NCBI GenBank assembly: GCA_009838845.1
Contig: VXRD01000044.1
Span: 6,984-70,983 of the forward strand
Source: Gemmatimonadota bacterium
Lineage (GTDB): Bacteria > Latescibacterota > UBA2968
DNA length: 64,000 nucleotides
Direction of reading: 5' to 3'
The notes beneath the pieces are model-generated. The model had not been told where the DNA came from. It did no database searches and saw nothing but the letters and a program-made list of their open reading frames with translations. The translations under genes and the position numbers were made by a program. How positions within the stretch are numbered: position 1 is the first letter of the stretch; every line of letters begins with the position of its first letter. Below, in pieces: positions 9,847 through 12,623 of this stretch.

Positions 9847-9862
9847 ATGGGAGAATTGCAAA

Positions 9863-10507
9863 ATGCTAAAGAAATCTCTTGGAATATTTTTTTATGTGGT
9901 AATTTTAGGTCAGAGTGCGTGTAACAATGACGAGCCAATCGAGAATTCATCAGATGCGCAACCCGGACCTACAAAAACTCAGGTTCACAAAAACCCACCT
10001 GAACCGGTGTTGGATAGGTGGGATATTGCTGATAGAGAAACAATCAGACTTCAACCATCTGTGTTTTCCCAACTGCCTGAGAATATTGTCCTGGAACTTC
10101 AATCCAGACAATGCACGATTCCACAGATATACGATGATCCTAAACCACATAACGTCATCAGTGGAGAATTTGAAAAGCAGGACCAAACAGATTGGGCTGT
10201 CTTATGCTCAAAAGATCTGACTTCCTCTATCCTGATATTTTGGAACGGCTCAGTGGAAAACCCCACAATTCTGTCTCCACTGCCAGACAAAGGAGCTTTG
10301 CAAGGCATTGGCGATGACCGAATTGGTTATAGCAGATATATCGCTACAGTGGGAAAAGCGTTTATTGAAGATCACTATAGAGCGTATGGTGGCCCTCAAC
10401 CCCCAGCAATTCATCATGATGGCATAGCTGACGGGCAAGCAGGCAAGGGGTCAAGTGTTCACTATTATCACAACGGTAAATGGCTGCGACTTACGGGTGC
10501 TGATTGA
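9863..10507 (+). CDS. Putative lipoprotein, unknown function
   Basis: A 214-residue protein starting MLKKSLGIFFYVVILGQSAC, a short charged and hydrophobic leader ending in Cys20 that resembles a lipoprotein signal (the residue at -3 is Gln, which is atypical). The mature part begins with a Pro/Asn/Lys-rich stretch and has no catalytic motif I recognise. GGGAG lies about 9 bp before the ATG. It is the last gene of the plus-strand run from 5931 and converges on the DUF4276-like gene. Confidence 0.6.
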   Translation: MLKKSLGIFFYVVILGQSACNNDEPIENSSDAQPGPTKTQVHKNPPEPVLDRWDIADRETIRLQPSVFSQLPENIVLELQSRQCTIPQIYDDPKPHNVISGEFEKQDQTDWAVLCSKDLTSSILIFWNGSVENPTILSPLPDKGALQGIGDDRIGYSRYIATVGKAFIEDHYRAYGGPQPPAIHHDGIADGQAGKGSSVHYYHNGKWLRLTGAD

Positions 10508-10509
10508 GA

Positions 10510-10539
10510 GGTCGTGGCGACCTTAAAAAGGTAAGTCGC
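10510..10539. terminator. Hairpin between convergent genes, possible bidirectional terminator
   Basis: Two overlapping stems are visible directly after the lipoprotein stop: GGTCG-tgg-CGACC at 10510-10522, and a longer bulged stem pairing 10517-10524 with 10530-10539 around a short A-run. On the minus strand the loop side is T-rich (CCTTTTT). There is no classic long T-tract after the stem, so the assignment is tentative. Confidence 0.35.
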
Positions 10540-10546
10540 TGAGCTA

Positions 10547-11161
10547 TTAAGGTCTTTCGGGTTCAGGTCCCTGCGGGCTACCCAATGCACACAGATGTTC
10601 GACAAAATAACGAGCACTGGGGCATTGAGAATGCCGAGCGGCCCGTCTAACATCAAATCCGTGGACGTGAATGAATTTTCTGGCAAAAGAGAGTTTTGTT
10701 GCCCCTGGCCCTCTGCCCTTTTGGGTGCGGAGTTCCTTCAGTCGATCCCAGGGCATTTCATCTAATGTTTCTGGATGAGTTTCGTAAAAGGTGTCATCCC
10801 CCAACCACTGGCGCATCGCCTTTGTATCGGCGAGAAACCAGGACTCCATAGCCTTCTTCGCAATCGTGACGAGATCAATTCCCTGAAAGCCGATAATTTC
10901 CTTGCGTTTTTGCACACACGGCGCACAAGTATCGGGATCAAGGTCAGCGAGTACAACTACCTTATCCGGATTTGCAATCGTCCTGAGATTTCTGACAAAG
11001 GTTTCGATGTTATGACTACACATGTTGCCGTTACCAGCAGCATCAACTACCGGATCAACCACTTCCAGATTGCAGTCCTCACGTAGCCATTTCCGAAACA
11101 ATTCGCTTTCAACCAGCCGCTTTTCTGAAGCACCCTCCACCACGAACCCCACAGTCACCAT
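10547..11161 (-). CDS. TOPRIM-like DUF4276-type protein, partner of AAA ATPase
   Basis: A 204-residue protein with the hallmarks of TOPRIM-fold DUF4276/RloB-like proteins: a Glu-bearing first strand (FVVEGASEKRLVE, residues 5-17), an acidic second motif VVLADLDPD near residue 73, a W-x-x-x-D element (AMESWFLAD), and a C-terminal SARYFVEHL. Such domains coordinate Mg2+ through Glu and DxD. Their usual neighbours are OLD-like ATPases in phage-defence systems of the AbiL, PARIS and RloAB kind. The ATG overlaps the 3' end of the ATPase gene (ATGGTGA), a sign of translational coupling. A longer frame from 11194 is possible but would overlap the ATPase further. Nucleolytic activity is an inference. 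Confidence 0.7.
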   Translation of the reverse strand: MVTVGFVVEGASEKRLVESELFRKWLREDCNLEVVDPVVDAAGNGNMCSHNIETFVRNLRTIANPDKVVVLADLDPDTCAPCVQKRKEIIGFQGIDLVTIAKKAMESWFLADTKAMRQWLGDDTFYETHPETLDEMPWDRLKELRTQKGRGPGATKLSFARKFIHVHGFDVRRAARHSQCPSARYFVEHLCALGSPQGPEPERP

Positions 11162-12297
11162 GGCAGCCCTCCACCCAGGAGATTCGAGAGCCATACTTCA
11201 TCAAGGCCTAACGGGGCCATGTCCTTCTCAGAGAGATTTACAGCATCAGCGCGCTTCATGGTCGTACGGCCATCAACCTTATCCACGAGAATGAGTTCAC
11301 GCAGTTTAAGTGCGCGCACAACGGACTCGCTATGAGTAGTCAACCATATCGGATTTTCAGGCGAAGCCTGTTGCCGCATCATATCTACGAGTTCGCGGAT
11401 GGCCTTAGCGTGCAGCCCTCTCTCTGGCTCCTCAATCAACGTCATTCCGCCATCTGAAGGTGCGTCCAACACAGCTACCAGTAAAGAGAGAGCGTAAATT
11501 GTACCGTCTGAAATGAGATGAGCTGGGAATCGCCTTTTAGTCCCTTTTTCTTGAAATAGTAAGGCGGTGCTACCATCCAGTCTCTGCTTTTCAATCTGGA
11601 TATTCTCGATCCCTGGAACAATCATCTCCATCCACTCTAAAATATTTTCGCACACTTCTGGATCGGCCTCTAAACGCTGCAAAACACTTGCCAGATTTTG
11701 CCCATTGCGATCTAATCGCGTTGGATCAAAGTCAGATATATCCGGCTCTTTTGCATCCTTAGGTTCAATTCGATACACATTCAAATTAATCAGGAATTCG
11801 GTAAACTGTCGTCTTGTGGATATCCCTAAAACCGAATAGCTACCTGGGAATACACTTGCACTAGTCCGTTCTCCTTTTTCGTAGATCTCCACCTCGGCCC
11901 TGTTCCGCTCAACAAGTTTTTTCCCATTGGCGTATAAGTATTCTTCGATATTGGTTTCGCTATCGAGGTCGTGAATGCACAATGAGTAGTGAAATGCCGA
12001 CGACGTTTCTGACTTATCTTCGCATAGGTCGCATTCGATTTCAAAACAGAATTTTTTGGAATCTGGCCCGCGACGCTTCGCCGAATGGATATTTGCAAAT
12101 CCCCCATGCGTGCGTAGCGCGATTCCTATCCCGCCGAGCACAAAGAGACGGACAAAGTCCAGTGCATCAAAAAAATTACTTTTGCCCGAGCCATTCGCTC
12201 CCGCGAATACCGAGAAGGAGGAAAGGTCCGTTATCTCCAAAGAGTCAATGCTCTTGAAGTTGGCAATCTTCAATCTGCGGATGAGTCTATCGCTCAT
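11155..12297 (-). CDS. AAA (OLD/SMC-like) ATPase of a defence-type module
   Basis: A 380-residue AAA_21/AAA_15-type ATPase. It opens with the family's first strand (LKIANFKSIDSLEI), then Walker A GANGSGKS at about residues 33-40. A long insert follows, then the D-loop/Walker B region MTLIEEPERGLH near residue 295 and a switch His in LTTHSES about 35 residues later. This order is that of the ATPase subunits of AbiL-, PARIS- and Septu-like immunity systems, and of uncharacterised AAA_21/DUF4276 pairs. The ATPase is expected to sense an invader signal and release or activate the TOPRIM partner, which is encoded immediately downstream with overlap. The start is 49 bp after a small RHH gene. The ATPase identity is secure; the defence role is inferred. 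Confidence 0.85.
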   Translation of the reverse strand: MSDRLIRRLKIANFKSIDSLEITDLSSFSVFAGANGSGKSNFFDALDFVRLFVLGGIGIALRTHGGFANIHSAKRRGPDSKKFCFEIECDLCEDKSETSSAFHYSLCIHDLDSETNIEEYLYANGKKLVERNRAEVEIYEKGERTSASVFPGSYSVLGISTRRQFTEFLINLNVYRIEPKDAKEPDISDFDPTRLDRNGQNLASVLQRLEADPEVCENILEWMEMIVPGIENIQIEKQRLDGSTALLFQEKGTKRRFPAHLISDGTIYALSLLVAVLDAPSDGGMTLIEEPERGLHAKAIRELVDMMRQQASPENPIWLTTHSESVVRALKLRELILVDKVDGRTTMKRADAVNLSEKDMAPLGLDEVWLSNLLGGGLPW

Positions 12298-12346
12298 GGC
12301 TCTGCCTTGTATAAATACGATGGTTTAAAGGGGTTACACGGCTTGA

Positions 12347-12604
12347 TTATCCAGATGAAGCCCGAATACGTTCACTAACCCATTCCTGAATCAGATTTAC
12401 CCGAGAGATACCTCGCGACATAGCAAGTGCCTCTACAACCTTAAATTCATCAGGCGCCAAGCGAACAGTGACAGAAGTTTGACGCTTAAAAACAGGTTCA
12501 CTCACTTCTTCGAGTTCTCCCTCAAAATCGGTTAAGTTATGCATATCCCAGAAATGAGTGAGTTCTTGAATAGAATCGGTCTTTGGAATGTTTGTACGAG
12601 TCAT
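12347..12604 (-). CDS. CopG/BrnA-type RHH antitoxin-like protein, no toxin partner
   Basis: An 85-residue protein of the CopG_antitoxin/BrnA type. An N-terminal acidic segment (PKTDSIQELTHFWDMHNL, DFEGELEEV) is followed by a ribbon-helix-helix domain (SVTVRLAPDEFKVVEALAMS, then RGISRVNLIQEWVSERI). Such proteins normally neutralise a small BrnT/RelE-like toxin encoded next to them. No toxin gene is present: the upstream neighbour is the transaldolase operon and the downstream neighbour is the AAA ATPase. It could be an orphan antitoxin or the transcriptional regulator of the ATPase/TOPRIM module. Confidence 0.75.
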   Translation of the reverse strand: MTRTNIPKTDSIQELTHFWDMHNLTDFEGELEEVSEPVFKRQTSVTVRLAPDEFKVVEALAMSRGISRVNLIQEWVSERIRASSG

Positions 12605-12623
12605 TAGTTCCTCAATCCTAACC

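Follow-up and report, generated by a model that had tools for sequence, protein, structure and literature searches.

The window, a 64,000-nucleotide stretch of contig 44 of a Candidatus Latescibacterota genome (G000), carries three genes on its minus strand that encode an RHH protein, an OLD-like ATPase and a TOPRIM-like protein. The question raised by this locus is whether the three genes form one regulated immunity system, as a sequence-only reading of the window had proposed, or a two-gene pair with an independent gene in front of it. The three open reading frames are real, lie on one strand and follow one another in the proposed order (Table 1). The RHH gene starts 19 nt past the stop codon of the transaldolase gene, and its intact frame is separated by 49 nt from the ATPase gene. 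The ATPase and TOPRIM-like genes overlap by 7 nt (11155-11161) when the latter starts at ATG 11161. This start is most likely correct and the start given by the ORF caller (11194) too long, because the corresponding methionine is annotated as the start of the Escherichia coli homologue and because the overlap then equals the one in E. coli (L080 6013-6019).

Table 1. Positions of the genes and of the variable segment in the window.
Feature	Position	Strand	Details
Transaldolase gene, upstream of RHH gene	13298-12624	-	
RHH gene, probable orphan BrnA/CopG-type antitoxin	12604-12347	-	85 aa; PF12441 29.9 bits
HEC-01A-type OLD/ABC ATPase gene	12297-11155	-	380 aa; PADLOC PDLC04176, AAA_21
HEC-01B/DUF4276-type TOPRIM-like gene	11161-10547	-	204 aa from ATG 11161; PADLOC PDLC04191
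Unknown lipoprotein-like gene, lipobox-like GQSAC	9863-10507	+	214 aa; convergent to ATPase-TOPRIM pair
Variable segment between convergent sulfatase and transaldolase genes	9847-12623	.	Synteny, junction sequences, flanking-gene tree

The ATPase matches the PADLOC model HEC-01A over its full length (452 bits, E 3.8e-136) and the Pfam family AAA_21 (E 2e-27). It contains a Walker A motif (GANGSGKS, residues 33-40), an SDGT signature (residues 263-266), a Walker B motif (LIEEPE, residues 287-292) and a THS motif (residues 321-323). The Walker A, Walker B and THS histidine motifs, which had been noticed before, are real, and no core residue of Walker A, SDGT, EEPE or THS varies among nine related ATPases, down to 22% identity. 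Further PADLOC matches include the AbiLi model (105 bits) and the AriA model, and the RloA and RloB models are absent from the best 25 of the 117 matches. A structure model of low confidence (pLDDT 59) resembles GajA, retron PtuA and Rad50 in Foldseek searches, with E values to 7.8e-12. The most variable part of the protein spans residues ~121-160, with 41% identity in a 20-residue identity profile versus 62-90% elsewhere. This variability would fit a sensor, which suggests that the segment may be the sensing part of the ATPase, the probable sensor or switch subunit.

The TOPRIM-like protein matches the PADLOC model HEC-01B (246 bits, E 5.2e-74) and scores just below the cut-off of the Pfam family DUF4276 (25.5 bits, cut-off 30.2, E 1.8e-5). 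The motifs VEG (E9), DLD (D73) and ExWFLAD (E106-D112) are kept in its relatives; among 71 DUF4276 proteins, E9 is present in 69, and D73 and E106 in all. To compare the family with known TOPRIM domains, a profile of these 71 proteins was aligned by hhalign with DUF4435, the TOPRIM family of AriB, which gave a score of 34.3 (P 1.9e-4, probability 47%) and placed VEG on VEG, D73 on DxD and E106 on a conserved glutamate. Among 200 column-permuted control profiles, 197 scored 15.4 or less; the other three were set aside, and the two of them that were inspected are end-gap artefacts of 2 and 15 columns. The earlier suggestion of a TOPRIM-like protein with conserved acidic residues is therefore borne out by three near-invariant acids and a TOPRIM-like profile. 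Comparison of single sequences is uninformative here, since DUF4435 failed to match a lone primase TOPRIM that served as positive control (probability 0.6%). The protein has no match to PF14491 (DUF4435) up to E = 1, DUF4435 is absent from the genome at E<=1e-6, and searching the PDB with the DUF4276 profile returned no credible sequence match. An AlphaFold model of the protein alone, built on a thin alignment, has a pLDDT of 58, too low for its fold search to be informative; the best Foldseek hit is an unrelated protein (E 0.02). The most plausible identity of the second protein is a TOPRIM nuclease of the DUF4276 type, which makes it a probable nuclease effector. The comparison provides profile-level evidence that DUF4276 may be a TOPRIM-family effector related to AriB, and it pinpoints candidate catalytic residues.

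The ATPase and TOPRIM-like genes form a real two-gene unit. A HEC-01A-type ATPase is present in 60/60 DUF4276 loci drawn from 386 genomes, and it adjoins or overlaps the DUF4276 gene in about 59 of them, inside and outside the phylum; at one locus (L137), the ATPase was found 1.2 kb from the DUF4276 gene. DUF4276 occurs in 75 of the 386 genomes, at up to eight places in one genome, and few genomes have precisely the window's subtype (6/386 by the PDLC04191 model). Judged by both model matches, the pair is of an already catalogued kind, HEC-01, and adds a stand-alone example in an uncultured phylum. A related pair in E. coli (44% and 46% identical to the two proteins; 604 and 330 bits on the HEC-01 models) lies between pglX and pglZ of BREX-1. 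It shares the gene order and the 7-nt overlap with the window pair and also has no RHH gene, but it is embedded in the BREX operon and has a shorter TOPRIM C-terminus. Among 5,426 complete genomes of E. coli, 26 have this pair, 20 times on a chromosome and 6 times on a plasmid, and annotated pglX and pglZ genes flank it on either side. It can be tested in standard laboratory strains. In NZ_CP010234.1 (L080) and the 25 further records, the two genes are annotated as 'AAA family ATPase' and 'hypothetical protein', the second being an unannotated TOPRIM-like protein.

The RHH protein has no match in PADLOC, so that the HMM search of the three proteins, proposed together with the three-gene reading, identified the ATPase and the TOPRIM-like protein only. 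In Pfam, it matches CopG_antitoxin (PF12441; E 9.6e-7, with the score above the cut-off of 28), and no toxin ORF lies beside it in the short interval to the transaldolase stop. The assignment to an orphan BrnA/CopG-type gene thus stands. Its nearest homologues, in the same-genus genomes G002 and G010, are 61-65% identical BrnA-like proteins whose genes overlap a BrnT-type toxin gene; these toxins score 26-29 bits on PF04365, below the cut-off of 34.5. The window gene resembles these BrnTA partners and differs from them in having no adjoining toxin. A cognate BrnT elsewhere in the genome was sought and rejected, the sole candidate being 33% identical and at an unrelated locus.

The RHH gene does not accompany the pair in other genomes. 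It is absent in the nearest relatives, G005 and G009, where ~100 nt of other sequence occupies its place, and from four pair loci of another family, in which the gene before the ATPase reaches up to its start or runs past it. It is likewise absent from all 60 surveyed DUF4276 loci and from the E. coli pair, and CopG_antitoxin matches none of the 56 small ORFs that precede ATPase genes in the survey. An RHH remnant in G005 and G009 was considered and rejected, as their intergenic DNA aligns no better than shuffled sequence (p ~0.46-0.48, with an 11-nt match only). Linkage had been named beforehand as one of the refuting tests for the three-gene reading; the comparison found the RHH gene unlinked to the pair and its nearest relatives beside BrnT toxins. 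The claim that the RHH protein is a component of a regulated variant is not supported, because the gene is missing at every other relative of the pair that was examined, and a false third component is removed from the system. The RHH gene is most plausibly an orphan antitoxin gene of the BrnA type that does not belong to the pair and most likely came to lie in front of it through a chance insertion.

A regulated three-gene system would fit the intact frame of the RHH gene, on the same strand and at a short distance from the ATPase gene. In such a system, the RHH protein would repress the ATPase-TOPRIM operon or neutralise the TOPRIM effector, and infection would relieve this control. A second same-genus pair locus, with antitoxin-like regulators directly upstream (a HigA-like XRE protein and a UPF0175 protein with an RHH-like N-terminus), is consistent with this arrangement. 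However, the absence of the RHH gene from all the loci listed above argues against it, the sequence around the RHH gene showed neither an inverted repeat resembling an operator nor a clear promoter, and the regulators at the second locus are lost or internally deleted where the pair stays. We therefore consider this system unlikely. At the second locus, which is unrelated to the window locus, the ATPase gene of G002 (L158:1615-2332) is preceded by both a UPF0175-type gene and a gene for a HigA-like XRE protein; G006 (L151) keeps HigA, with 72 nt deleted from within UPF0175, and G007 (L153) keeps UPF0175 and has no HigA. Both genes are of antitoxin types, with no visible toxins, and their decay beside an intact pair argues that the regulators are dispensable. 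Two sites do not suffice to establish an association of regulators with the pair. A broader form of the idea is that orphan antitoxin-type genes (BrnA here, HigA-like and UPF0175-like genes at the second locus) are repeatedly captured upstream of DUF4276 pairs in this genus as interchangeable repressors or silencers. We regard this as quite improbable; if true, such capture would define a regulated HEC-01 variant.

The pair and the RHH gene lie in a variable segment. In six same-genus sister genomes, the stop codons of the transaldolase and sulfatase genes touch or overlap, with nothing between them, and in G000, G005 and G009 the pair lies exactly at this junction. In a tree of four flanking genes, each of these three genomes has an empty-site sister (G003, G006 and G007), which indicates repeated gain, loss or exchange of the segment at a single site. 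The four genomes of another family have the pair downstream of a Gfo/Idh dehydrogenase gene and, in those annotated by ORF list, near a PfkB-type kinase; the copy in G034, one of the four, is decayed. When the ten neighbour proteins of the window pair were compared with PADLOC, helicase-type cross-matches were the only hits, with no other system and no Hma set. The scanned neighbours are metabolic except for the generic helicase that gave these cross-matches, and no defence island is visible. The lipoprotein-like gene has no Pfam or PADLOC match. Its only homologues are in G005, at the same place, and in G008, elsewhere, without a pair and in two split frames; it is linked to the pair in G005 and not in G009, and is probably a passenger. 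Promoter and terminator scans of the locus stayed below chance expectation. No tRNA was found within the window, and a candidate tRNA/att site at ~10559-10584 was rejected: the tRNA-like string (GGGTTCAGGTCC...TACCCA) is the coding end of the TOPRIM gene and occurs once in the genome.

The analysis establishes what the pair is, that its coupling and motifs are conserved, that it occurs in a scattered way at a fixed site and that it has relatives within BREX operons. The matches to HEC-01A and HEC-01B, the coupling in ~59/60 loci, the BREX relatives, the patchy presence and the hypervariable ATPase segment lead us to favour a role in defence: quite probably, the two genes are a stand-alone anti-phage or anti-mobile-element module with an ATPase switch and a TOPRIM nuclease, and the RHH gene in front of them encodes an orphan antitoxin of its own. 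That the pair defends this host, forms a complex and acts as a nuclease is inferred, as are its substrate, trigger and outcome. The OLD/ABC ATPase would assemble under nucleotide control and hold or recruit the TOPRIM protein. If the pair works like PARIS, sensing of infection and control of the nuclease would fall to the ATPase, and a phage signal would release or activate the TOPRIM protein. The latter may then cut nucleic acid (tRNA or DNA) through an Mg2+ site of E9, D73 and E106, which would stop the infection, probably by growth arrest. In PARIS, the effector AriB is a two-metal TOPRIM tRNase that is inactive as the E26A mutant (PMC12409363); judged by its motif, E9 would be the equivalent of AriB E26, the first glutamate. 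Activity data for HEC-01 were not found in the literature searched; HEC-04, a related HEC class that consists of a single gene, is reported to give protection from T4 and T5 (PMC12111858).

The metabolic genes around the pair, and an ATPase fold that is common to Rad50/SMC, could also point to a role other than defence, in which the ATPase and its TOPRIM partner serve DNA repair or housekeeping. We consider this very unlikely, because the pair is patchy at one site among sister genomes, several paralogous pairs occur per genome (up to 8 places), and relatives are found inside BREX operons, on plasmids and chromosomes.

Among known systems, the module interpretation is closest to HEC-01, with both models matched strongly by two adjacent, overlapping genes on the same strand. 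HEC-01 (PADLOC-DB 2.0) stands for Hma-embedded candidate 01 and is attributed to a 2024 preprint by Payne et al. The window pair differs in standing alone between metabolic genes, with no adjoining Hma or BREX genes found among the ten neighbours. As we understand PADLOC, it scores the protein models and not an Hma location; we therefore take Hma embedding as part of how the class was discovered, not as a feature that defines it. PARIS (AriA-AriB) likewise combines an OLD/ABC ATPase with a separate TOPRIM gene, and the three acidic motifs align at the profile level. PARIS is detected as AAA_15/21 plus DUF4435 (PMC9122126), and this DUF4435 effector is absent from the window pair. PARIS is embedded in Salmonella BREX (PMC11341690), so that it and the E. 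coli pair are both in BREX company, and TOPRIM-linked OLD ATPases often accompany BREX (PMC12839542). That the pair is PARIS proper is highly improbable: the ATPase matches the AriA model (PDLC02980, 106 bits), the two-gene layout is alike and the relatives keep BREX company, but the second protein lacks DUF4435 and matches HEC-01B/DUF4276, and the ATPase scores far higher on HEC-01A. In AbiL, the ATPase would pair with AbiLii; the window ATPase matches AbiLi, and the second protein has no match to AbiLii in PADLOC. The sequence-only reading of an OLD-like ATPase with a TOPRIM/DUF4276 partner of the AbiL/PARIS kind consequently holds in the broad sense and fails for both named effectors. The fold matches to GajA and PtuA, drawn from the low-confidence ATPase model, extend the likeness to OLD/Gabija and retron systems; in OLD and GajA, however, ATPase and TOPRIM are fused, and PtuAB has an HNH partner.

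Single Latescibacterota genomes (G008, G044 and G046) contain at least eight DUF4276 places, which is unusually many for one defence family. G005, which also has the window-type pair, carries a second, different HEC-01-type pair (G005:C114, L021; ATPase 848-2029, DUF4276-type gene 2026-2634). No close relative of the pair was found in viral contigs, and one contig has a diverged pair with a broken second gene. In this contig (IMGVR_UViG_3300044729_001303, L083:1892-3462), the HEC-01A-type ATPase is followed by a TOPRIM start that runs into unrelated sequence ahead of the E106 motif, and a primase-helicase-like gene adjoins.
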